A DNA stretch of 60,979 bases from a filamentous cyanobacterium CCP3 (GTDB lineage: Bacteria; Cyanobacteriota; Cyanobacteriia; Phormidesmidales; Phormidesmidaceae): the NCBI GenBank assembly GCA_003022385.1, contig PYGV01000006.1:1-60979 (forward strand), in the 5' to 3' direction. The notes under the pieces are model-generated. The model was not told where the DNA came from and did not search any database. It saw only the letters and a program-made list of their open reading frames with translations. Shown piece by piece: positions 10,994 to 60,977 of the stretch. Position numbers and translations under genes: made by a program. Positions within the stretch are counted from its first letter, which is position 1. Each line of letters begins with the position of its first letter.

Positions 10994-12526
10994 ATGCGAG
11001 AGGATTTGAACGTACTAGTACAAGCCCAATATCCTCTGATCTACCTGGTCACTTTTGAGGAAGAGCGGGCAGAGCAAACCATTGCCACAGTGGCTCGTCA
11101 TCTCTCAAGGGAGCAAGACGTCAAAGCGCCCATGCGGCTCTTCACCTGGACGATGACTCGGGGTATGGTCGAGTTTGGCAGCCAGGGCACGGGTACTCAA
11201 AACAACAACACGGTTTCTCCCGAAGCGGCGGTGGAGTGGGTCATTCGTCAGCGCGAGCCCGGCATCTTTATCTTCAAAGACTTGCACCCCTTCAAAGATT
11301 CTCCTGCTGTTACTCGCTGCCTGCGAGACGCGATCGTATCCCTCAAGGGCACCCGCAAGACCATTGTGCTAATGTCTCCCGTGCAGGAAATTCCCATTGA
11401 GCTGGAGAAAGAGGTAGTAGTCCTCGACTTCCCACTGCCCAACATGTCTGAGTTGGATGAGGTGCTCTCGACTGAGATGAACCGGGCTCGCGGCAGCAGC
11501 ATTTCTACCGAGGAGCGCGAGAAGCTGCTAAAGGCCGCCCTGGGGCTAACCCGCGATGAGGCCGAAAAGGTCTACCGCAAGGCGCGGGTCATGGCTAAGC
11601 GGTTGACGGCTGAAGAGGTAGACATTGTTCTCTCCGAGAAAAAGCAGCTGATTCGCCGCAACGGCATTCTGGAGTTTATGGATGTCGATGAGACCATCAA
11701 CTCTGTGGGTGGCCTAGAGGAACTGAAGCACTGGCTCAAGCAGCGCTCTGACGCATTTACCGAGCGGGCTCGGGAATATGGTTTACCTCAGCCTAAAGGC
11801 ATGTTGATCCTGGGAGTACCCGGCTGCGGTAAGTCGCTAATCGCCAAGACCACATCTCGGTTGTGGGGCCTGCCGCTGCTGCGCCTCGACCTGGGTCGGG
11901 TGTACGACGGCTCAACGGTGGGTCGATCGGAGGCCAATTTACGCAACGCTCTGCGCACGGCTGAGTCAATTTCTCCCTGTATTCTCTTTATTGATGAGAT
12001 TGACAAAGCGTTTGCTGGTGGAGTTGGCTCCTCTGACTCCGATGGCGGTACTTCTAGCCGCATCTTCGGCACCTTCTTGACCTGGATGCAGGAGAAAACC
12101 TCTCCGGTGTTCGTGATGGCTACAGCCAACCGGGTTGAGAAGCTGCCCAGTGAGTTTCTGCGCAAGGGCCGCTTCGATGAAATCTTTTTTGTTGATCTGC
12201 CCAACGCTGAAGAGCGCAAGGACATTTTTCAAATCCATCTGCAAAAGCGCCGTCGCGACATTGAGCGCTTTGACCTCGACCAGTTGACCAAGGTCTGTGA
12301 TGGGTTCTCTGGAGCTGAAATCGAGCAGGGGCTGATTTCGGCTATGTATGAAGCTTTTGCCCAAGGACGTGAGTTCACTCAGCTCGACATTATTGCGGCG
12401 ATTCGCGCTACGCTGCCGCTGTCGAAGACCATGAGTGAGCAGGTCACTGCCCTGCGGGATTGGGCCCGCCAGCGGGCGCGTCCGGCGGCAGCCTCCGTCG
12501 CTGAATATCAGCGGATGGAGTTTTAA
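10994..12526 (+). CDS. ycf46: Ycf46-type AAA+ ATPase
   Basis: 510 residues from the ATG at 10994 (an in-frame TTG two codons earlier is less likely). The N-terminal 230 residues form the Ycf46-specific region beginning MREDLNVLVQAQYPLIYLVTFEEERAE (quoted here as MREDLNVLVQAQYPL). The AAA+ module (about 245-450) has Walker A GVPGCGKS, Walker B CILFIDEIDKAF, sensor-1 MATANR and the arginine finger in FLRKGRFDEIFF. There is no protease or transmembrane part, so it is not FtsH despite similarity in the ATPase core. Plastid ycf46 homologues are of unknown function, and cyanobacterial mutants link it to carbon/light responses (recalled). It sits between the ribbon-helix-helix gene and the DUF1257 gene. 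Confidence 0.9.
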   Translation: MREDLNVLVQAQYPLIYLVTFEEERAEQTIATVARHLSREQDVKAPMRLFTWTMTRGMVEFGSQGTGTQNNNTVSPEAAVEWVIRQREPGIFIFKDLHPFKDSPAVTRCLRDAIVSLKGTRKTIVLMSPVQEIPIELEKEVVVLDFPLPNMSELDEVLSTEMNRARGSSISTEEREKLLKAALGLTRDEAEKVYRKARVMAKRLTAEEVDIVLSEKKQLIRRNGILEFMDVDETINSVGGLEELKHWLKQRSDAFTERAREYGLPQPKGMLILGVPGCGKSLIAKTTSRLWGLPLLRLDLGRVYDGSTVGRSEANLRNALRTAESISPCILFIDEIDKAFAGGVGSSDSDGGTSSRIFGTFLTWMQEKTSPVFVMATANRVEKLPSEFLRKGRFDEIFFVDLPNAEERKDIFQIHLQKRRRDIERFDLDQLTKVCDGFSGAEIEQGLISAMYEAFAQGREFTQLDIIAAIRATLPLSKTMSEQVTALRDWARQRARPAAASVAEYQRMEF

Positions 12527-49638: not shown

Positions 49639-52041
49639 ATGTTGTCGAAGCTCTACCGCTGGCCGCGTAGAACAGCGCTCTGGTTTGGCATCCTGGCCTT
49701 TGCTATGGCCTGTACGGCGGGCACACTCGGCCGTCTACCCACGGCCAAGTCCGAGCAGCCCGATCTAAGCGTGGGCGTTATTAGCCCCGAAGTTGTCGTG
49801 GTTTCGATGCGCGAGGGCGAGGTTACCCACGCCCGGCAGGTCCCCTACGAGGCCGAACCCCAGGACCGCTTAGAAACCTCGGGCAGCGACACCTGGGTGA
49901 TTCGGCGGGGGCAGACCCTCGGTACGCTGGTGGGCCCCAACCAGGATATTCTCTATGGGTTCGATCGCTACACCGAAACACCCTTCAACGCCAATCGCGC
50001 CGGTCAGTCCAGCAGCTACCGCATTCAATCTAAAAACGACGCCAGCTACCGACAGCCTGCGACCCCCGCTGAAGTCTATCGCAAAAGCAAGCCAATAGAT
50101 CTCGCTCGCATTTCGCGGGGGGGCGATCTGCGCTGGGCCATGGAGCATCGCTTTTATCTGCGGCTGCCTACTCCCCTGACGCCAGGAAAAACCTACACCA
50201 TTGAGCTAACGGGCCAAGAGCAGCCACCGCTTACCCTCACCTACCAGCCCGATCGCCAGACCAGCGAAGCGGTGCACATATCTGCGGTCGGCTTTCGCCC
50301 CGACGACCCGGTGAAAGTCGGCTTTTTGTCGACCTGGATGGGCACGGGGGGTGGGCTTAGTTACCCAGAGGGGCTGTCGTTTCAGGTGATTGACGAGGCC
50401 AGCCAGCGAACCGTCTTTACCGGGCAGGCGAAGCGCCGCTACCGCGACGGCGATAGTGAGGACGCCCGCGATCGCACCTACACCCTCGCCGATGTTGACC
50501 AGCTCGACTTTAGCAACCTCGATCGGCCCGGCCGCTACCGCCTCTGCGTCGATACCGTCGGCTGCTCTACCCCGTTTGCGATCGCGGACGATGCCTGGCA
50601 GCAGGCCTTTAACCTGGCCGCGAGGGGGTTTTATCACCAGCGCAGCGGCATTGAGCTAGGACCTCCCTATACCGATGTGGTGCGCCCCCGGCCTTTTCAT
50701 CCCGACGATGGGGTGATTGTGTACCAGTCAAGCGCAGGGCTGGTGAACACGGGCAACGGCCTCAACGCCCAGGGCACGGACGAAGGCAACTTTGCCAACC
50801 TGGTGCAGGGCAGAACCAATACGACCGTGGCCAACGCCTGGGGCGGCTACTTCGATGCGGGCGACTGGGACCGCCGAGTGCAGCACCTGGATATCGCTCG
50901 CTGGCTGCTAGAGCTGCTGGAGCTTTTCCCTGAGCCGATGGAGCTGGCGCTCAATATTCCAGAATCCGATAACGACCGGCCCGATCTGCTCGACGAAGTG
51001 CTGTGGGGGGTCGACTTCTTCCGCCGCCTGCAAACCCCCGAAGGCGGCGTTCGCGGCGGCATTGAGTCGGCGAACCATCCCCGTCGGGGCGAGACCAGCT
51101 GGCAGGAGACGCTGCCGATTATGGCCTATGCCCCCGACCCCTGGAGCAGCTACATTTACGCTGGAGTCGCCGCCCGCACCGCCCTAGTCATGGGCACCTA
51201 CGCCCCCGACCAGGTGCAGGGCTACCGCGACAGCGCCCTGGCAGCGATGAACTGGGCCGAAGCCCGTCACAGCGAAGGCATTGAAGCCCTCGACTGGGCC
51301 CAGCACAGAATTGAGGCCGATCGCGCCCTGGCGGCCCTGGAGATCTACCGACTGACGGGCGATCGCGCCTGGCACGATCGCTTTGTCGCAGCCCAGTCGG
51401 CCCTTCCCGCCGAGGCCCGCGAGGACTACCGCGTTGCCAATCCGCAGCGAGAAATTGCCTTCCTCTATGGCCGCATGCCCGCTGAGCAGGTCGATGTCGA
51501 CCGGCAGGCCGAGCTGCGAGCGTCACTGCTGGCCGAAGCCGATGCCGCCGTAGGAACCGGTCAGACGACCGCCTTTGGCTGGACAAAGCTGATTCCCTCG
51601 ACCCCTGTGGGCTGGGGCGATGGGCTGGGCTCACCCAAGGCCCGTACCCTGCTGCGAGCCCATGCGCTAACAGGTAGCGATCGCTACCTTGAGGCCGCCC
51701 TACTAGCCTGCCAGTTCTCCGCCGGAGCTAACCCCGACAACATGACCTACACCACTGGCCTTGGCCCCAAATCGCCCCAGAACCCGCTGATTGTCGATCA
51801 GCGCATCACTGGCGACCTGCTGCCGGGCATCACGCTGTATGGCCCCATCGACACCGGCCTGTATGGCGACCAGTGGTTCTTTGATGTGCTCGAATCGGTG
51901 GCGGTCCCTCCGGCCCGCGAGTGGCCCTCTATTGAGACCTACTTTGATATCTACTTTGTGCCCAATATCAACGAATTCACCGTTATGCAGAGCATGGCCG
52001 ATGCCGCCTACGCCTGGGGCTATCTGACCGGGCGAGGGTAA
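49639..52041 (+). CDS. Glycoside hydrolase family 9 protein (cellulase-like)
   Basis: 800 residues. The N-terminal membrane/signal segment is TALWFGILAFAMACTAGTLG (about 12-31), with a possible but weak lipobox at AMAC. An Ig-like CelD_N domain lies at about 205-315 (VHISAVGFRPDDPVKVGFLS). The GH9 (alpha/alpha)6 catalytic domain spans about 330-800, with the nucleophile/base motif YFDAGDWDRR (Asp406, Asp409) and the proton-donor Glu779 in PNINEFTVM. The upstream 150-residue region contains EVVVVSMREGEV and is of unknown role. It is an inverting endo- or exo-beta-1,4-glucanase by family. Uncommon in cyanobacteria; cellulose or matrix remodelling is inferred. GGGGGT precedes the ATG. 11-bp repeats lie upstream. 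Confidence 0.88.
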   Translation: MLSKLYRWPRRTALWFGILAFAMACTAGTLGRLPTAKSEQPDLSVGVISPEVVVVSMREGEVTHARQVPYEAEPQDRLETSGSDTWVIRRGQTLGTLVGPNQDILYGFDRYTETPFNANRAGQSSSYRIQSKNDASYRQPATPAEVYRKSKPIDLARISRGGDLRWAMEHRFYLRLPTPLTPGKTYTIELTGQEQPPLTLTYQPDRQTSEAVHISAVGFRPDDPVKVGFLSTWMGTGGGLSYPEGLSFQVIDEASQRTVFTGQAKRRYRDGDSEDARDRTYTLADVDQLDFSNLDRPGRYRLCVDTVGCSTPFAIADDAWQQAFNLAARGFYHQRSGIELGPPYTDVVRPRPFHPDDGVIVYQSSAGLVNTGNGLNAQGTDEGNFANLVQGRTNTTVANAWGGYFDAGDWDRRVQHLDIARWLLELLELFPEPMELALNIPESDNDRPDLLDEVLWGVDFFRRLQTPEGGVRGGIESANHPRRGETSWQETLPIMAYAPDPWSSYIYAGVAARTALVMGTYAPDQVQGYRDSALAAMNWAEARHSEGIEALDWAQHRIEADRALAALEIYRLTGDRAWHDRFVAAQSALPAEAREDYRVANPQREIAFLYGRMPAEQVDVDRQAELRASLLAEADAAVGTGQTTAFGWTKLIPSTPVGWGDGLGSPKARTLLRAHALTGSDRYLEAALLACQFSAGANPDNMTYTTGLGPKSPQNPLIVDQRITGDLLPGITLYGPIDTGLYGDQWFFDVLESVAVPPAREWPSIETYFDIYFVPNINEFTVMQSMADAAYAWGYLTGRG

Positions 52042-52350: not shown

Positions 52351-53058
52351 CTAGAAGAACGACGGCTGGTGACGAATCAGGCTGAGAAACTCTTCCCGCG
52401 TCTTCGAATCTTCCTGAAACACCCCCAGCATGGCGCTGGTCACCGTCCAGGAGCCGGGCTTTTGCACCCCGCGCATGACCATGCACATGTGGCTGGCTTC
52501 CACCACCACGGCTACACCCTTAGGGTCTAGAATTTCCTGCACGGCCTCAGCAATCTGGCGGTTGAGGCGCTCCTGCACCTGTAAACGGCGGGAGTACATC
52601 TCAACAATGCGGGCCAGCTTGCTCAGGCCCACCACCCGCTGATTGGGAATGTAGGCGACATGGGCACGCCCCATGAAGGGCAGCATGTGGTGCTCACAGA
52701 GGCTAAACAGATTGATGTCGCGCACCAGCACCATCTCGTTGTGGCCCTCGTCGAAGATAGCGCCGTTGACCAGCTCTTCTAGCGACTGCTGGTAGCCGCT
52801 GGTGAGAAACCGCATGGCCTCGGCGACCCGCTTCGGCGTTTTGAGCAGCCCCTCGCGCTCGGGGTCTTCGCCTACCGACAGCAGCATGGTGCGCACGGCG
52901 TCGGCCATGCCTTCGTGGCTGGTTTCGGGAATCGGGTACTGATCCGCATCGTCGCGGTAGCTGCGGGTGCGATCGGGGCGAACTTCAGGCTGGACGATTT
53001 TGGGACCGCCATTGGCGGCAATTTGGTCGTTAAGGCTGTTTGAGGATGCAATAGTCAT
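52351..53058 (-). CDS. folE: GTP cyclohydrolase I (zinc type)
   Basis: 235 residues. It converts GTP to dihydroneopterin triphosphate, the entry to folate and pterins. The N-terminal 45 residues are variable. The core has [13 protein letters not shown], the zinc site in [13 protein letters not shown] and [10 protein letters not shown] (Cys, His, Cys), and [22 protein letters not shown] with the GTP-binding Arg/Lys. Presence of both cysteines marks the zinc-dependent FolE1A type. It follows the SDR gene on the same strand after 80 bp, suggesting joint expression. Confidence 0.95.
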
Positions 53059-53138: not shown

Positions 53139-53903
53139 CTACAGGGCTCCGCCAGCGGGCATCAGGGTGAGGTCTTCAATCACCGCTTGGGAGGGCAGGA
53201 GAATGGTGTGCAGAACGGTTTGCGCCACCACCTCCGGAGACAGCATGGACGATCGATCGAAGTCGGCTTGCACCGTGTCGGTATCCCAAATAGGCGTATT
53301 GACAGCGCCTGGGGAAACGGTAACCACGCGAATACCGTGGCTCCGTTCTTCGACCGCTAGCACCCGCGACAGCGCCACCAACGCAGCTTTGCTCACGCTG
53401 TAGGCTCCCCAGTCTGGGAAAGCAGACTTCGCGGCAACGGAGGAAATGTTGACAATCGTGCCGCCACCCCCGGCCCGCAGCGTTGGCAACACCGCCTGAA
53501 TGCACTGGAATACGCTGGTCAGGTTGAGGTCTATCACCCGCTGCCAGTCGGCCAGGGGCGTGGTGGCGATCGCTCCGGTGTAGCCCATGCCAGCGTTGTT
53601 GACCACGACGCTGAGGGAGCCAAAGTCGGCCAGCACCTCTGCTATACGGCCCTGCAAGCCCTCTGTGTGGGCCAGGTCAACGGCGTAAGCCTTGGCGACA
53701 ACACCGCAGGCGGCTAATTCCTCCTGCACCGGCTGGAGCGAGTCGAGGGAGCGGCTGATTAAAGCAACATCGTAGCCCGACCGGGCCAAAGCATGGGCGA
53801 TCGCGCGACCAATACCACGGCTGGCCCCGGTTACCAGGGCGCGACGCGGCAGGTCAGGAAACGTAGAAGTCTGCAATAGAAAATACCCATCAACAAAGAA
53901 CAT
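53139..53903 (-). CDS. Short-chain dehydrogenase/reductase, next to folE
   Basis: 254 residues from the ATG at 53903; a frame to 53987 adds 28 residues without homology. A classical SDR: dinucleotide motif TGASRGIG (25-32), NNAGMG (102-107), catalytic Ser154/155 in NISSVAAKS and Tyr168-x3-Lys172 in GAYSVSKAA. Arg51 and the RSLD region after beta-2 favour NADP(H) (inference). The substrate is unknown. Position immediately upstream of folE on the same strand raises the possibility of a pterin reductase of the sepiapterin-reductase kind, but fatty-acid-type SDRs look similar. Confidence 0.87.
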   Translation of the reverse strand: MFFVDGYFLLQTSTFPDLPRRALVTGASRGIGRAIAHALARSGYDVALISRSLDSLQPVQEELAACGVVAKAYAVDLAHTEGLQGRIAEVLADFGSLSVVVNNAGMGYTGAIATTPLADWQRVIDLNLTSVFQCIQAVLPTLRAGGGGTIVNISSVAAKSAFPDWGAYSVSKAALVALSRVLAVEERSHGIRVVTVSPGAVNTPIWDTDTVQADFDRSSMLSPEVVAQTVLHTILLPSQAVIEDLTLMPAGGAL

Positions 53904-54161
53904 GGGGGCGCTAGTAACCGGGGTCGCAAGCTGAAACAAGCCGCTCCAGCTCAGGGCTTCATCCGACCTCATTAACCATGTTAACAAATGTAAACCATTT
54001 ATTAACGTAGTTATAGCTGACCAGCGCTCGGGATTGTTCTACCCTAGCGCTAGCCTCAAACCGATACATGAATAGATGATTAACTCCTTGATCTTTACTA
54101 GTTCTGGAAATTGACGGGATATGGTTGCCGCAGCGCAGGACACAGATTGCCCCAGAATGCC

Positions 54162-55142
54162 CTAAGCAGCTTCAGCAAAGACACCTATCTGACGGTATTT
54201 TTGGTAGCGGAGCTGCTGCCGCGCGGCTGGAGTCAGCTGAGATAACTCGGCTAGCTGCTCGATAAGCGCCTGCTTAAGACTGTCTGCCGCCTCAATCGGG
54301 TGAGCGTGGGCGCCACCCACGGGTTCGCTCAGCAGCACATCTAAAAGGCCCAGCTGTTTTAGGTCCCAGGAGGTAATCTTGAGGGCTTCGGCGGCTTCTC
54401 CAGAGCGGGCGGCGTCTTTCCACAAAATGGCAGCGCAGGCTTCGGGACTGGCGACGGTGTACACCGAGTGCTCAAACATCATCAGGCGATCGCCCACCCC
54501 AATGCCCAGCGCCCCGCCCGAGCCGCCCTCGCCAATGATGGTGCAAACGATGGGGACCGAGAGGCCAAACATTTCGCGCAGGTTGTAGGCGATCGCCTCA
54601 CCCTGGCCCATTTCTTCGGCTTCGTAGCCGGGGTAGGCCCCTGGGGTATCAATAAACGTAATGATTGGCATAGAAAACCGATCGGCGTGGCGCATCAGCC
54701 GCATCGCTTTGCGGTAGCCCCCCGGCGAGGCCATACCAAAGTTGCGGGCCACGTTGTCTTTGGTGTCGCGCCCCTTTTGATGGCCCAAAATCACGACGGG
54801 GCGACCGTCCAATCGGGCCACGCCGCCCACGAGGGCCGGGTCGTCTTTGCCAGAGCCGCGATCGCCGTGCAGCTCTATCCACTCGTCGGTAATGGCCTGA
54901 ATGTAGTCGAGGGTGCTGGGGCGGCGGGGATGGCGCGCCACCTGCAGACGCTGAGCCGGCGTCAGGTTAGAGAAAATTTCCTGGCGCAGGTGAGTCGCAC
55001 GGGCCTCTAGCTGGCGCAGCTGAGCCGAGACATCGACATCGTTTTCCTCAGCCAGATCGCGAATTTGATCAATGCGGGCCTCCAGTTCAACCAGGGGCTT
55101 TTCAAACGACAGCAAAATCGACTTGCGCTCAGGTAGGGCCAT
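54162..55142 (-). CDS. accA: Acetyl-CoA carboxylase carboxyltransferase, alpha subunit
   Basis: 326 residues from the ATG at 55142 ([20 protein letters not shown]). With AccD it moves the carboxyl group from biotin to acetyl-CoA, making malonyl-CoA, the committed step to fatty acids and polyketides. Visible are the coiled N-terminus, [51 protein letters not shown] (key DTPGAYPG) and the oxyanion-forming [15 protein letters not shown]. Encoded downstream of the DUF6208-type gene and polyketide synthase on the same strand, 238 bp after the former. Confidence 0.97.
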
Positions 55143-55351
55143 AGCCAAGGGGGATACACAGATAGATACGAGGCAGCTTAACCAAGAATCTTCCAGCCGT
55201 CTGGAGGAGAATCCCGATCCATTCGCATCCTAGAATACCAAGCCAACGCCCCGATCGCCTAAACCCATCGCCTGGGGATGACCCTACCCAACCGGGGAAA
55301 AGCCTCCTGGCCAAACTCAAGCCCCCAGAAGAAACGCAATCACCTGACGCT

Positions 55352-55375
55352 TTTACACAGTAGTTTACACAGTAG
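55352..55375. repeat. Tandem 12-bp duplication after the DUF6208-type gene
   Basis: TTTACACAGTAG occurs twice head to tail (55352-55363, 55364-55375), five bases beyond the stop codon. The remaining gap to accA (55143-55351) shows no gene; a short imperfect stem GGCTT/AAGCC-type around 55290-55335 is the only structure seen. Confidence 0.7.
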
Positions 55376-55380
55376 ATAGA

Positions 55381-56328
55381 TCACTCGACGTTTGGGCCAG
55401 ATCGCAGGAACTTGACCAATGGGGCCGCCATACCCAGCATCTCTGGTGTTTTGGGATGGACTCGCAGAATGTAGACGCCCTGTTCGGTCATCGGAGCAGT
55501 GGTGTGGTGGTCTTGGGTGATGGGGTACCAGTCGTAGGGAAAACAGTCGCGGCTGTAGAGGCTGAAATAGAGGCGGTGGGTATCTAGCAGGTGGGCAGGC
55601 AGGTCAATGGTGAGCTGCTCGCCTCGATCTAGAGCCCCATAGAAAAAGTGGGTTTCGGGGTTGGGCACGGGCAAAAAAGTCGGTTTCACAAAGGAGCGGG
55701 GTAGCCACTGCATCCAGCGCAGCAGCGGGTAGACGTAGAAATTTAGCGCGCTAAATAGCAGACCCCGGCGGGCCGCCAGCCCGCGATAGAACTGGTTGAA
55801 GTCGGGCGGGGCCGATCGCGACTCCGAGGCTAGGGCGGGGGTGCCGTCTACGGCAATGGCGGGCAGCTGCACCGGGTCGCGCCAGTCGTAGTGGCGCAAC
55901 CCCACCAGGTAGCGCCCTGGGGGCAGGGTAATGGTGGCGGTATCTTGGTCGGGGGGCACCGTGAGCGAGCTGATGCTGGTCAGGGTTTTGTAGCCCTTGA
56001 GGGTGTAGATCACCGCCGTCCAGGTGGGGGCCGACTGCCAGAGCGATCGCACATCCAGCGTAATGGTGGACTGCACGGTGAAGGGGCCTGCGATCGCAAT
56101 CAGCGCGTGCAGGTTCCACCGCGCCCGACTCATGGTCCACAGCAGCTTGAGGGGCGACTTCAAAAAGTCTGCCGACACAATTTGCCAGTCAGCCTCAACC
56201 TTGGTGTCGGTGGGGTTGTAGTAGCGGCTGATCAGCGTCAGGGTAGCTTTCACCCCCCGCGAAAAGCCATAGGACAGTAGCCCTAGCGGAATTTCCCACA
56301 GTACGGCCAGCGGGCGGGTGAGGGTCAT
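55381..56328 (-). CDS. DUF6208-type protein coupled to the polyketide synthase
   Basis: 315 residues. The N-terminus starts MTLTRPLAVLWEIPLGLLSY, with an amphipathic/hydrophobic stretch, then YYNPTDTKVEADWQ and long beta-rich segments (TVPPDQDTATITLPPGRYLVGLRHYDWRD; key PPGRYLVGLRHYDWRD) and a second hydrophobic part at about 190-215 (LLFSALNFYVYPLLRWMQWL). Near the end are FFYGALDRGEQLTIDLP and DCFPYDWYPITQD. I believe this is the cyanobacterial family now called DUF6208 (recalled). No enzyme fold is evident. The ATG overlaps the polyketide synthase TGA (ATGA), so the two are translationally coupled and probably act in one pathway. Confidence 0.75.
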   Translation of the reverse strand: MTLTRPLAVLWEIPLGLLSYGFSRGVKATLTLISRYYNPTDTKVEADWQIVSADFLKSPLKLLWTMSRARWNLHALIAIAGPFTVQSTITLDVRSLWQSAPTWTAVIYTLKGYKTLTSISSLTVPPDQDTATITLPPGRYLVGLRHYDWRDPVQLPAIAVDGTPALASESRSAPPDFNQFYRGLAARRGLLFSALNFYVYPLLRWMQWLPRSFVKPTFLPVPNPETHFFYGALDRGEQLTIDLPAHLLDTHRLYFSLYSRDCFPYDWYPITQDHHTTAPMTEQGVYILRVHPKTPEMLGMAAPLVKFLRSGPNVE

Positions 56329-59300
56329 GGATGGTGCTCCGATAGGGGAATCGACGCCTGACCCTCGGGGGCAATGGCGGCGTGGATGATACGGGCTAAT
56401 CCCCCAGGGGTTTCCAGGGGTAAGTCATGCCCCCCGGCCAGGGATACCTGGCTCGCCTGGGGCAGATGCTCTTGCAGAAAGGCCAGATCTTCAGGCCGAT
56501 TGAACTGGCTATGCTGGCCAAATACTACCGTAGTGGGCCGCTGAATGCCCCGCAGAATTTGGCCGTAGCCCTGGCGATCGAGCAGACCGCCGCTGAGGCC
56601 CAGGGTCGTGCGGGTCTGCAACCGCGGATCGCTGCGCCAGATCACCCCTCCTTCTACTGGCTGGGTCAGGCGCCGAGCCATCGCCTCGGCCAGAGGCTGA
56701 CTCAGATAGGGCTTGAGGGCCAACAGTCGCTCGGTGGCCGCCGCCACTGAGGCCATCGCGGTCGGCTGAGGCGCATTGGCCAGGGCATTGAGGTGGGCCA
56801 CCAGCTGAGTAGCGGGGTCTAGAGATGGACCAGGGGCAAGTACCACCGGCTCTACCAGAACCAGTCGCTGCACTCGCTCAGGCCGTAGACTGGTCAACAC
56901 TGCCCCCAGCACCGCCCCCATCGAATGCCCCACCAGCACGACGGGGTCAGAGCTTAGAGTTGCAGTCAGGCTGTCGAGGTCGCCCAGAAAGTCGAGCAGC
57001 TGGTAGCCGCCGTCGGCGTGGGCTGAGCGACCGTGCCCTCTCAAGTCAGGGGCGATCGCATGGTAACCCTGGTCGGCCAGGGCCGTCGCCACCCCATCCC
57101 AGGCGGCTCCGTGCTCCAAAATGCCGTGGAGACAGAGCACTTTGAGTCCATCCTCCGGCCCCCAGTGGCACAGGTAATACGGTTGCTCCCGCAGCCAGAT
57201 CTTTTCCTCTCGCATGGCTCCCAGCGGCACATAGTGGGGAGATAGGGCAACTGACTCGGCCCGCACGGTTGCAGAGGGGGCCGGGGTCAACGTCTGTTCT
57301 TGAGGTAGGGGATAGTCAAACTGGGCCGCCAGGGCCTGACTGGTGGAGTTCAGCCGGTGGGGCAGCTGAATGCCCTGCCAGATCTTGGCCAGGTGGGCCT
57401 CAATGCGGCTGCGCTGACGAAAATTGGGGTCATCCACGGCCATAGACTGGGCGCTGACGCCGTCGGTCATGCGCCGTCCCTCGTAGGGGGTCAGCACCGC
57501 TGGATCGAAGGGCAGCTCCAGAAAGGCACACAGGTCGCGCATGGCTGGTTCTGGATCGACCACCAGATCTTCGTAGCGCAGGGTGTAGTGGCGATCGGCA
57601 TCCAGGGAACTGGCAAAGGTGCGAATGTTTTGGTTACAGGCCTGCCACACCTGTTCCGCCAGCTGGTAAGGAGCATCGGGCTCCAGGTCAAAGATTTTGT
57701 ACATGCGGTTGTGCACAAAAGACTCGATCACCGCGTAGGGATGGCGCACCAGATGGATGTATTTCGCTCCCTCAAACATCTGTTCGGCCCGCTCCAGGGT
57801 TTCCAGGCTGAGACTGTAGGTAGGGGATTTATCGACTAACAGCCGCCCCCCGGCCATTTGCTGGAGTTTGTCATACACCGCTGGCACCGTAGTCTGGTGC
57901 TGCCGCCATTCACTCAGCAAAGCGGCAGCCTGGTCGGCGTTCACCTGCAGAAGCTCCATCACCGCCCGCTGCAGACCCTCTTGCAGGTAGCTGTAGCCCA
58001 GGGCCGCTGCCTGGGCTTCTAATGTGTTAAAGGGCAGCAGGTGTAGCTCTGGAGGGCAGAACAACTGGGGATGGCCCGCCAGCATTACCCGCAGCAGGGT
58101 GGACCCCGACCGGGGAGCTGACAGCAAAAAGACCATCGGCGGGTTGCGGCGGGCGGGCAGTGGCTCCAGCGGAGCCGGGGCCTGCCAGGGGCTCTTGGGT
58201 AGATTTGCGTCTGCCTTTTCTGATAACCCTACCGCCGCTAAACCTGCGTCATGCCGATCGCTGACGGGTCGGTGCACCCGCACCAGCTCCCGAGCGATGT
58301 AGGCCGCCAGCGCCCCTACGGTGGGATGGGCCAGCACCTCGCGGGGGTAGAGCACCAGATCGAGATCTTGCTTGCACAGGGTCAGCAGTTCCATGGTCAT
58401 CAGCGAGTCGATGCCTAAATCCATCAGGGGCGCATCGACGGGAACTGCCTCCGACAGCCCCATTACTGTAGCTACCTGGGCTTGCAAGTAGGCTGTCACC
58501 GTGACGAGCCGCTCGGCCTCGGGCTGCGCCAAAATCTGCTCCAGGGATGGCGCGATCGCTTGCTGACCATCGGCCTGCTTGCCAACAGGTTCAATCGCCT
58601 GACGCTGTGGAGCCGACACTTCCTCACTAACAAACGCCGAGACGATCGCTGGCGGGCGATCGGTGGGCAGGTAGCGGAGCAATCGAGGCCAGTCTAGGCG
58701 GGCGATCGCCACTGTGGCGGGTGACTCTGTTGCTAACAGTCGCCCCAGCCACTGCCACGCCTCAGAGGCTTTCAGGGGCGGCATGCCGCGCTGAGTCAGA
58801 GCCGTCGCGCTCTGGTGGGCGGCCATACCGGCCCCCTGCCAGGGCCCCCAGTTGATGCTTAGAGCCGGTAGCCCTTGCTGGCGGCGGTACTGGGCCAGAG
58901 CATCCAGGCCCGCGTTGGCCGCCCCGTAGTTGCCCTGGCCAGGGGAACCCAGCACCGACGTAATTGACGAGAACAGCACAAACCAGTCCAAATCAAGGGT
59001 CTGGGTAAGCTGGTGCAGGTTCCAGGCCCCCTGCAGCTTGGCGGGCATGACCTGGTGGAACTGCTCGACCGATTGATTGGCCACAAAACCATTCGCCAAA
59101 ACGCCTGCTGCATGGAACACCCCGCGCAGGGGGGGCAACTGCTCTATGCGATCGAGCAGGGTGGCCAGGGCGGCGCGATCGCTCCCATCCACCGACTCCA
59201 CCCACACGCTGGCCCCGGCCTGCCGCAGCGGCTCCAGGCTTTTTTCTAGCTCGGCGCTGCTGCCCCGGCGGCCCGTGAGCACCAGATGGCGGGCACCCTG

Positions 59301-60977
59301 CTCAACCAGCCAGGCCGCCAGCTGCTGGCCCAGAGCGCCGGTACCGCCGGTAATCAAATAGGTAGCCTCTGCCTGAATGGCCTGGGTTTCAGCCTTGGCC
59401 ACGGCGGCAAAATCCAGCGCCTGGAGCCGAGGTACCCAAGTCTGCTCCAGGCGCAGGGCGACCTCATCTTCGCCCTGGGAATTCGTGATCTGGGCAACCA
59501 GGTTGTCTGACCAGGGAGCCGCTGCTGACGCATCCGCCGCTCCGGGCAAATCGATCAGCCCGCCCCAAAATTCGGGATGCTCCAGGCGCAGGGTGCGACC
59601 CAGGCCCCACAGCACGGCCTGCTGTGGGGCGGCGACGGTATCGGCGGCATTCACAGCCTGGGCCCCCGTCGTCACTAGCCAGAGTTTGGGCTGACTAGGG
59701 CCAGAGGACTGGGCCAGTTCCTTCACCCAGTGCAGAACTGGTGCGGCGATCGCCTCAGAACCGGACTCGTTTGCGGTGTCCTCAGGAGTCAGGACAAGAA
59801 GGTTCACAATCCGCTCCGTTTGGAGAGTCTCCATCAGCGCTGCGAAGGGCCTTTCCTGGGCTAACGATACCTGGTAGTGGTTGGGCTGAAGGGACTGGAA
59901 GCGATCGCCCGCCGCCACTCGAATGGCCTCAATTTTCTGCTTCCGCAGGGTCTGGCTCAGGCTGTCCCAGAGGGCATCGCTGGCCCCCCAGATCAGCCAT
60001 TGTTCGCCCGCTGCCGCTCCGGCTGCCGGGGCGATCGCCTGGGGCTGCCAGACAATGCTATAGGCAGCACTGGGAACGGGATCCGGTGCATCATCGACTA
60101 CCGCTGCGCTGCGCTGGGGCAGCGCCAGGTCGATCCAGTAGCGCTGCCGCTGGAAAGGATAGGTGGGCAAGCTCAGCCACTGGCGCTGGTAGGGACGATC
60201 GAAACTGGCCCAGTCGATAGTAAGCCCCTGCTGGTAGAGATGGCCCAGGCTGGTGAGCAGGGTTTGCCAGTCCGACTGGGCGCGGCGCAGGGAGGGTAGC
60301 CAGGTGTGGGTACCGTGGGCGACACAGCGCTTGCCCATGGCGCTGAGCACCGGATGGGGGCCAACCTCCAGAAACAGGGTGTGACCGGCGGCGTGCAGGG
60401 CGGCGATCGCCTCGGCAAACCGCACCGGCTGACGAGCGTGACGTCGCCAGTAGCGAGCATCCATAGGCAGATCGGGGCCGACAAACTCACCAGTCAAGTT
60501 AGACACCAGCGGCAGCGTCGGGGCGTGGAAGTTGATGCCCTGGGCGCTCTGCTCAAACACGTTGAGAATAGGATCCATCAACGCCGAGTGAAAGGCGTGG
60601 GACACCTGGAGAGGCTTGGTGCGAATGCCCTGGCTGTGGAGGTCGTCGATTACAGTCTCCAGGTCAGTCTGAGGGCCAGCGATAACGGTGTTATCTGGCC
60701 CATTCAGGGTGGCCAGAGAGACGGTACTGGGCAGCACTGCCGCCACGGTATCGGCATCGGCAAACACCGCCACCATGCCGCCGCTGGCGGGCAGGGTCTG
60801 CATCAGCCGTCCTCGCAGGGCCATCAGCCGCAGGCCGTCCTCCAGGCTAAAGACTCCGGCCACGCAGGCGGCCACGTATTCGCCCACGCTGTGCCCCATC
60901 ACCGCTGCTGGGCGAATGCCCCAGGCGATCCACAGCTGAGCCAGGGCGTATTCCAGGGCGAACAGGGCGGGCTGGGT
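56325..60977 (-). CDS. ols: Olefin synthase-type polyketide synthase, C-terminal part (AT-KR-ACP-ST-TE)
   Basis: 1550 residues visible; the 5' part runs off the window. Domains in order: acyltransferase (to about 280; GHSVGEY nucleophile Ser, HAFHS typical of malonyl-CoA); ketoreductase (about 500-740; ITGGTGALGQQLA, catalytic Ser in VLFSSITS, Tyr in GNYGAANAG); acyl carrier protein (about 815-890; phosphopantetheine Ser in GIDSLMTM); PAPS-dependent sulfotransferase (about 945-1215; LLSAPRSGSTLLR loop); alpha/beta thioesterase (about 1280-1545; Ser about 1352 in VGHSMGA, Glu in LVEPVVL as acid, His in AGGHDLP). The reaction in this family is sulfation of a beta-hydroxyacyl-ACP, then hydrolysis with decarboxylation and loss of sulfate to a terminal alkene. 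KS, first ACP and FAAL domains are expected outside the window. Confidence 0.93.
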   Translation of the reverse strand, partial: TQPALFALEYALAQLWIAWGIRPAAVMGHSVGEYVAACVAGVFSLEDGLRLMALRGRLMQTLPASGGMVAVFADADTVAAVLPSTVSLATLNGPDNTVIAGPQTDLETVIDDLHSQGIRTKPLQVSHAFHSALMDPILNVFEQSAQGINFHAPTLPLVSNLTGEFVGPDLPMDARYWRRHARQPVRFAEAIAALHAAGHTLFLEVGPHPVLSAMGKRCVAHGTHTWLPSLRRAQSDWQTLLTSLGHLYQQGLTIDWASFDRPYQRQWLSLPTYPFQRQRYWIDLALPQRSAAVVDDAPDPVPSAAYSIVWQPQAIAPAAGAAAGEQWLIWGASDALWDSLSQTLRKQKIEAIRVAAGDRFQSLQPNHYQVSLAQERPFAALMETLQTERIVNLLVLTPEDTANESGSEAIAAPVLHWVKELAQSSGPSQPKLWLVTTGAQAVNAADTVAAPQQAVLWGLGRTLRLEHPEFWGGLIDLPGAADASAAAPWSDNLVAQITNSQGEDEVALRLEQTWVPRLQALDFAAVAKAETQAIQAEATYLITGGTGALGQQLAAWLVEQGARHLVLTGRRGSSAELEKSLEPLRQAGASVWVESVDGSDRAALATLLDRIEQLPPLRGVFHAAGVLANGFVANQSVEQFHQVMPAKLQGAWNLHQLTQTLDLDWFVLFSSITSVLGSPGQGNYGAANAGLDALAQYRRQQGLPALSINWGPWQGAGMAAHQSATALTQRGMPPLKASEAWQWLGRLLATESPATVAIARLDWPRLLRYLPTDRPPAIVSAFVSEEVSAPQRQAIEPVGKQADGQQAIAPSLEQILAQPEAERLVTVTAYLQAQVATVMGLSEAVPVDAPLMDLGIDSLMTMELLTLCKQDLDLVLYPREVLAHPTVGALAAYIARELVRVHRPVSDRHDAGLAAVGLSEKADANLPKSPWQAPAPLEPLPARRNPPMVFLLSAPRSGSTLLRVMLAGHPQLFCPPELHLLPFNTLEAQAAALGYSYLQEGLQRAVMELLQVNADQAAALLSEWRQHQTTVPAVYDKLQQMAGGRLLVDKSPTYSLSLETLERAEQMFEGAKYIHLVRHPYAVIESFVHNRMYKIFDLEPDAPYQLAEQVWQACNQNIRTFASSLDADRHYTLRYEDLVVDPEPAMRDLCAFLELPFDPAVLTPYEGRRMTDGVSAQSMAVDDPNFRQRSRIEAHLAKIWQGIQLPHRLNSTSQALAAQFDYPLPQEQTLTPAPSATVRAESVALSPHYVPLGAMREEKIWLREQPYYLCHWGPEDGLKVLCLHGILEHGAAWDGVATALADQGYHAIAPDLRGHGRSAHADGGYQLLDFLGDLDSLTATLSSDPVVLVGHSMGAVLGAVLTSLRPERVQRLVLVEPVVLAPGPSLDPATQLVAHLNALANAPQPTAMASVAAATERLLALKPYLSQPLAEAMARRLTQPVEGGVIWRSDPRLQTRTTLGLSGGLLDRQGYGQILRGIQRPTTVVFGQHSQFNRPEDLAFLQEHLPQASQVSLAGGHDLPLETPGGLARIIHAAIAPEGQASIPLSEHHP

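Follow-up and report, generated by a model that had tools for sequence, protein, structure and literature searches.

The window analysed here is a 60,979 bp stretch of a filamentous cyanobacterial genome, comprising the entire contig G000:C444 (G labels denote genomes, L labels DUF6208 loci and C labels contigs; G000 is the window's own genome). At its right end, on the minus strand, the C-terminal part of a polyketide synthase (PKS) is followed by a gene of the DUF6208 family, accA, a short-chain dehydrogenase (SDR) gene and folE (Table 1). The best explanation of this locus is a two-part terminal-alkene module, consisting of an olefin synthase (Ols; FAAL and KS-AT-KR-ACP-ST-TE, in which ST and TE are the terminal sulfotransferase and thioesterase) and the DUF6208 protein, upstream of accA-SDR-folE. 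The coupling of DUF6208 to the olefin synthase is strongly supported, and the replacement in place of the alkane genes ado and aar by Ols-DUF6208 is well supported. We advance a broader proposal tentatively, at somewhat less than even confidence: that ST-TE formation of terminal alkenes, whether in a hydrocarbon or a polyketide pathway, may always require DUF6208 as a second protein (either an enzyme or an acceptor, which would engage the sulfated intermediate or nascent alkene and deliver it to the membrane), and that several cyanobacterial lineages had their ado-aar genes replaced in place by the pair, one gene at a time. If DUF6208 is indeed obligatory, work on the olefin synthase has so far overlooked one of its components. 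Two hydrocarbon pathways have been described in cyanobacteria; Ols, one of the pair, is a target for biofuel production, and a near-constant partner could be a lever for heterologous alkene production. The cassette's place in the ado-aar locus, seen alongside half-replaced states in relatives, suggests in concrete genetic terms how one hydrocarbon pathway may come to be supplanted by the other. We found no mention of DUF6208 in the literature searched, a coverage that leaves out one olefin-synthase survey (Zhu 2018). No Ols partner gene is mentioned in the excerpts available of PMC3903477, PMC6361979, PMC6256058, PMC7381351, PMC8472315 and PMC9118987, nor in those of PMC4094844 on ado-aar (papers with a PMC number are cited from excerpts throughout).

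Searches for DUF6208, for the window's ST-TE and for ADO were all run on one set of 386 genomes from the phylum. DUF6208 was found in 13 genomes and an Ols-type ST-TE in 12, all of which are among the 13 (Fisher's exact p 7e-22, a value that ignores relatedness; the ST-TE search scored three candidates per genome, and a distant ST-TE could have escaped it). Families f1, f7, f11, f13 and f16 each include sampled members with both genes as well as members with neither, and 12 further genomes with partial, weaker matches (nine to ST only, one of these with a weak TE fragment, and three to TE only) all lack DUF6208. A preliminary description of this DNA, made from the letters alone, had held that a link between the two would fall if DUF6208-type genes were equally common in genomes lacking ols; with ST-TE present in 12 of the 13 DUF6208 genomes, the sample shows otherwise. 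Just three of the 12 genomes (G000, G131 and G360) have the two genes side by side. In G262 and G300 they are separated by 14-22 kb, and the other seven carry them at a long distance or on different contigs, so that linkage alone is an insufficient explanation of their co-occurrence.

Across 84,980 species genomes, a pattern-based scan with a 13-sequence alignment as the query yielded 79 DUF6208 loci; these counts and those from the 386 genomes are not independent, because G058, G070, G131, G262, G300 and G360, among others, recur in both. ST-TE lies in the flank of 40 loci. In 29 of them DUF6208 follows no more than 300 bp downstream of ST-TE on the same strand (with an overlap or a gap of at most 30 bp in 15 of the 29, start codons being set by rule); the others are separated by 0.3-3 kb (eight loci) or 3-10 kb (two), or are convergent (one). 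No ST-TE was found in the flank examined of 35 loci, four of which have less than 1 kb of upstream sequence, and a further four of the 79 have only a partial DUF6208. When the genomes of these 39 loci were searched, 29 had a full-length ST-TE elsewhere and three a fragmented one, although a few of these 29-32 distant cases are the same cluster further off or split by contig ends. One genome that carries DUF6208 away from Ols is that of Picosynechococcus PCC 7117 (L105). DUF6208 itself aside, no gene type is common to more than five of 30 neighbourhoods of DUF6208 genes mostly distant from Ols. Adjacent pairs also occur in Oxalobacteraceae BJB404 (L120, not labelled as a metagenome-assembled genome [MAG]) and in MAG records labelled Phycisphaerae, Crocinitomicaceae, Acidobacteria and Actinobacteria, labels that may be wrong. 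The pairing is not due to chance, since it turns up repeatedly throughout the phylum and also in records bearing the labels of other phyla. Two diverged relatives were also noted: one with 24% identity in a Williamsia E01 MAG (L126, 7670-10816), downstream of an ST with no TE detected, and, in Symploca SIO1C2 (L118, 7343-8110 and 9962-10954), a second DUF6208-like match (25%) that neighbours the first and lies on the opposite strand.

DUF6208 is not confined to hydrocarbon synthases. In G262, in G300 (where its orientation relative to the PKS genes is divergent) and on a Calothrix plasmid it lies in or beside multimodular PKS clusters that have ST-TE and, in the stretches examined, no FAAL match, indicating that it tracks the ST-TE tandem and not the fatty-acid loader. 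The plasmid, plasmid4 of Calothrix brevissima NIES-22 (L207, 2402-15954; NIES22_72070-72100), carries a multimodular PKS with ST-TE and then DUF6208, and is typed as mobilizable; a homologous pair is found on a plasmid of Aulosira laxa NIES-50. Such joint travel, which is frequent, is what would be expected if DUF6208 were a passenger of the Ols cassette with no role in it. We consider this very improbable, given that DUF6208 is kept apart from the synthase in 7 of the 12 sampled genomes and outside the examined flank in 29-32 of 39, and given that it is under purifying selection (dN/dS 0.06-0.25 in six pairs). The DUF6208 and ST-TE trees correspond (r 0.795 over 68 genomes), with r 0.916 over the 28 genomes in which the two genes do not share one examined stretch (in at least two of these, G262 and G300, the distance is only 14-22 kb); over the 68 genomes, 41 of 65 splits are common to both trees, against a maximum of three in 200 label shuffles.

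That the synthase is an olefin synthase with an ST-TE end, as the preliminary description proposed, is borne out by profile matches to the KR-ACP-ST-TE end of a type I PKS in the window and by the recovery of its front elsewhere in the same genome. The open reading frame (ORF) is cut at the contig end because the window is the whole of C444. Contig G000:C150 ends with a FAAL ORF followed by 536 aa of PKS; its FAAL is 84% identical to that of L049 (462 residues compared) and its PKS part 91% identical to the same locus, a complete one from Nodosilinea WJT8 in which FAAL and KS are contiguous. About 90 residues (L049 residues 537-626) are missing between C150 and C444. With the front located on C150, the olefin synthase can be called complete in kind, and its FAAL has an ORF of its own. 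The FAAL, ACP and KS sought beyond the contig were recovered in part: FAAL and KS lie on C150, while a first ACP after FAAL was noted by eye only and in L049, at the end of its FAAL ORF.

The components found here (FAAL, KS, AT, KR, ACP, ST, TE) are those of the Ols pathways of Synechococcus PCC 7002, Moorea and Leptolyngbya PCC 6406; a separate FAAL ORF is likewise reported for the latter two (PMC3903477), and the GC content of 64% equals the value reported, again from an excerpt, for the Leptolyngbya PCC 6406 pathway. The ending also resembles that of CurM in curacin A biosynthesis, where ST-TE release is decarboxylative (PMC3903477). Unlike the described pathways, the one in the window has DUF6208 as a near-constant companion and sits as a cassette in the ado-aar locus. 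Both DUF6208 (L088) and a full ST-TE (G404) are present in Hyella patelloides LEGE 07179, a reported producer of 1-pentadecene and 2-pentadecene (PMC7381351).

The surroundings of the cassette indicate where it came to rest. In cyanobacteria ado, aar, accA and an SDR gene form a conserved cluster, together in 111 of 181 genomes, with folE next in most (PMC4094844). Two ADO genomes of the window's own family, G170 and G215, show the order ado-aar-accA-SDR-folE; the window matches this in the order and strand of accA, SDR and folE, with Ols-DUF6208 standing in place of ado and aar. No ADO and no AAR match was found in G000 (98% complete), and no AAR remnant above chance was found within the 232 bp between DUF6208 and accA. 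In an accA tree of 19 sequences, including the two ADO genomes, the window and its close relatives share a group with G170 and G215 at support 0.93; the group lies next to G434-G436 and apart from the Ols loci of Moorena, Symploca, Coleofasciculus and Prochloraceae. Since the window's accA groups with ADO genomes of its own family, the flank looks native and the synthase the incomer.

The preliminary description had instead read accA as supplying malonyl-CoA to the synthase, in which case the three genes would form one purpose-built operon. This reading has on its side the common strand, the 232 bp gap with no promoter-like match in it, and the presence of accA within 4 kb downstream in 14 of the 79 loci. 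It is nonetheless improbable: accA-SDR-folE is the conserved ado-aar flank, G170 and G215 have the same three genes with an accA that groups with the window's, and accA lies downstream in just one of the 35 loci without a flanking ST-TE, L087, whose upstream sequence is a mere 1 kb. The gene is better described as a resident of the ado-aar cluster.

Relatives of the window display half-replaced states. An open aar is kept between DUF6208 and accA in L048 (6003-7064), L049 (11083-12243) and L050 (12481-13542), and in the MAGs G434, G435 and G436 a divergent ado lies directly upstream of FAAL-Ols (L182, 5563-6231; L117, 114-767; L181, 4849-5511). The ADO proteins of these MAGs conserve what we take to be the di-iron ligand positions. 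No AAR match was found in G434, G435 or G436 and no ADO match in the L048 genome, where the AAR beside Ols is an orphan aldehyde-forming enzyme. The published rule that aar and ado never occur one without the other, drawn from 181 genomes (PMC4094844), does not hold for the L048 genome and G434-G436. The ado-aar and Ols pathways are also reported to be mutually exclusive (PMC3903477), and this exclusion is bent, not broken, because a complete alkane pathway was not found beside Ols. Ten genomes of the window's class in the 386-genome sample, its own among them, are without ADO, and every one carries Ols together with DUF6208. ADO is present in G262 and G300 as well, but there ST-TE is part of multimodular PKSs. 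Why genomes hold one pathway or the other is described as unexplained (PMC3903477), and engineered coexistence of both is tolerated (PMC6361979). In L050 a desaturase-like ORF, with histidine motifs noted by eye, stands between DUF6208 and AAR (11282-12169) and possibly acts on the alkene or a precursor.

The AlphaFold2 model of DUF6208, built with 63 homologues (pLDDT 91.9, pTM 0.88), predicts a helix at residues 5-33, a beta-sandwich at about 47-171, a helical stretch at 177-218 and a second beta-sandwich at 227-310. Invariant over 63 sequences are S19, W48, R70, W71, N72, G138, Y140, R145, Y147, P156, Y198, L219, P220, F228 and R289, and H74, D161, N178 and Y258 are nearly so. The hydrophobic character of the N-terminal helix is conserved; in the window protein, mean hydropathy over residues 8-26 is 0.95 (Kyte-Doolittle). 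The best fold match is 6ANS from Burkholderia (Z 11.6, 251 aligned residues, 5.4 A), which also ranked first with an earlier model (Z 11.7), followed by VPA0735/VPA0106 (2P3Y, 3VB9 and 3U07; Z 9.3-9.7, with the next entry at 6.5). These matches, at 8-9% identity, span both domains (226-251 aligned residues, root mean square deviation 5.4-6.4 A). We take all of them to be DUF1254/DUF1214-type proteins, but the fold likeness does not settle membership: hmmscan of 13 DUF6208 members gave no DUF1254/DUF1214 match at E up to 10 (its filters drop most matches above 0.1), and no DUF1214 proteins that could serve for a profile comparison were found in six genomes. A sequence search for relatives with solved structures returned three chance-level matches only, and the top-ranked match in a viral structure library (TM 0.42) was uninformative.

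Our best guess at the function, to which we give slightly less than an even chance, is that DUF6208 handles the product or an intermediate near the membrane. It would be a dedicated accessory protein of ST-TE chain release, in which the chain is sulfonated and then hydrolysed and decarboxylated. Its hydrophobic N-terminal helix would place it at or near the membrane; the two beta-sandwiches and the helical insert at 177-218 might receive from TE either the strongly hydrophobic product or the beta-sulfooxy acid that has been released; and the cargo could then be passed to the membrane, a hand-over that is itself a guess. The preliminary description had proposed that the protein may handle or export the hydrocarbon product, or else hold the synthase at the membrane. 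DUF6208 as an anchor or scaffold at the thylakoid or cytoplasmic membrane would account for the conserved hydrophobic N-terminal helix and hydrophobic insert, and for the ATGA coupling in the window along with the overlaps or short gaps in 15 of the 29 adjacent loci. We regard it as unlikely: S19 is the sole invariant column (of 15) in the N-terminal helix, the hydrophobicity there is borderline, and so many invariant polar residues would not be expected of a mere anchor.

Those same polar residues make an enzymatic role a close rival to membrane-near handling. DUF6208 might act on an ST-TE intermediate or product, for example by completing the desulfation or decarboxylation of the beta-sulfooxy acid, by clearing stalled acyl-ACP or by modifying the alkene. 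Invariant R70, N72, R145, Y147 and R289, with nearly invariant H74, D161, N178 and Y258, suggest a site for an anionic ligand, and the association follows the ST-TE tandem, not ST alone, extending to the multimodular PKSs described above. Against this, ST and TE are credited with the whole release chemistry (PMC3903477), profile searches recognised no catalytic family in DUF6208, and genome G157 keeps the gene without ST-TE; taken together, we judge an enzyme to be somewhat unlikely.

Several observations weigh against membrane-near handling and against a strict tie to ST-TE. Strict dependence on ST-TE is opposed mainly by G157, a DUF6208 genome in which the scoring of 25 of 25 candidates (best E 6e-17) revealed no Ols-type ST-TE. 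G157 (L166 and L180; G157:C56) and G262 (L164 and L165; G262:C15) have related multimodular PKS clusters with the same head, led by DUF6208, and the cluster endings differ, with ST-TE in G262 and another terminus, without ST-TE, in G157. The difference is apparently a natural swap of chain release, and the G157 gene has nevertheless been kept under purifying selection (dN/dS 0.25 against G262; 0.06-0.23 in the five other pairs). Among the 39 genomes searched for a distant ST-TE, four (all MAGs) have none and three have just ST or TE. The agreement of the DUF6208 and ST-TE trees is partly shared descent. As to the protein, the N-terminal region reaches our membrane-span criterion (a 19-residue segment with mean hydropathy of at least 1.6) in just 32 of 76 homologues, and the window protein has no clear transmembrane segment. 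The fold match is modest (Foldseek TM about 0.46), and no convincing sequence link to a characterised family emerged from the scattered weak Pfam hits (best E 0.013). The invariant Arg/Trp/Asn/Tyr set is at least as compatible with a site for an anion or a substrate as with a passive carrier role.

Table 1. Features at the right end of the window (domain residues are numbered within the PKS ORF)
Feature	Position	Strand	Basis
Olefin synthase PKS, C-terminal part (AT partial, KR, ACP, ST, TE; 1,550 residues), open at contig end	56325..60977	-	ORF and domain matches
Acyltransferase domain (AT), N-terminal part missing	60237..60977	-	PF00698 Acyl_transf_1, residues 1-247
Ketoreductase domain (KR)	58836..59366	-	PF08659, residues 538-714
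Acyl carrier protein domain (ACP)	58296..58490	-	PF00550 PP-binding, residues 830-894
Sulfotransferase domain (ST), Ols/CurM type	57501..58139	-	PF13469 Sulfotransfer_3, residues 947-1159
Alpha/beta-hydrolase thioesterase domain (TE)	56412..57140	-	PF00561 Abhydrolase_1, residues 1280-1522
ATGA overlap of PKS stop and DUF6208 ATG	56325..56328	-	Sequence
DUF6208 gene, 315 aa; predicted N-terminal helix 5-33 and two beta-sandwiches	55381..56328	-	PF19713
accA	54162..55148	-	PF03255, 461 bits; TIGR00513, 497 bits
Short-chain dehydrogenase (SDR), PRK07454-like	53139..53987	-	Profile match
folE, GTP cyclohydrolase I, last gene of the resident cluster	52351..53058	-	Profile match

The gene layout itself agrees with the preliminary description, in which the PKS stop codon overlapped the start of a DUF6208-type gene and accA followed on the same strand. 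The shared ATGA is present, the accA assignment is upheld by its two profile matches, and the neighbour of the synthase matches PF19713 with 262.1 bits (E 6.9e-78), above the curated cut-off of 25. A consensus scan covering 53900-56500 detected neither a sigma70-like promoter (0.9 expected by chance) nor a terminator-like site within the DUF6208-accA gap, which is weak evidence. The true start of the SDR gene is probably further in, because its profile match starts only at residue 48. An 800-aa ORF at 49639-52041, by eye like a family 9 glycoside hydrolase, faces folE and also adjoins folE in L048, L049 and L050. Elsewhere in the window's genome, a further large multi-KS PKS cluster with seven KS matches lies at 27-66 kb of G000:C353.

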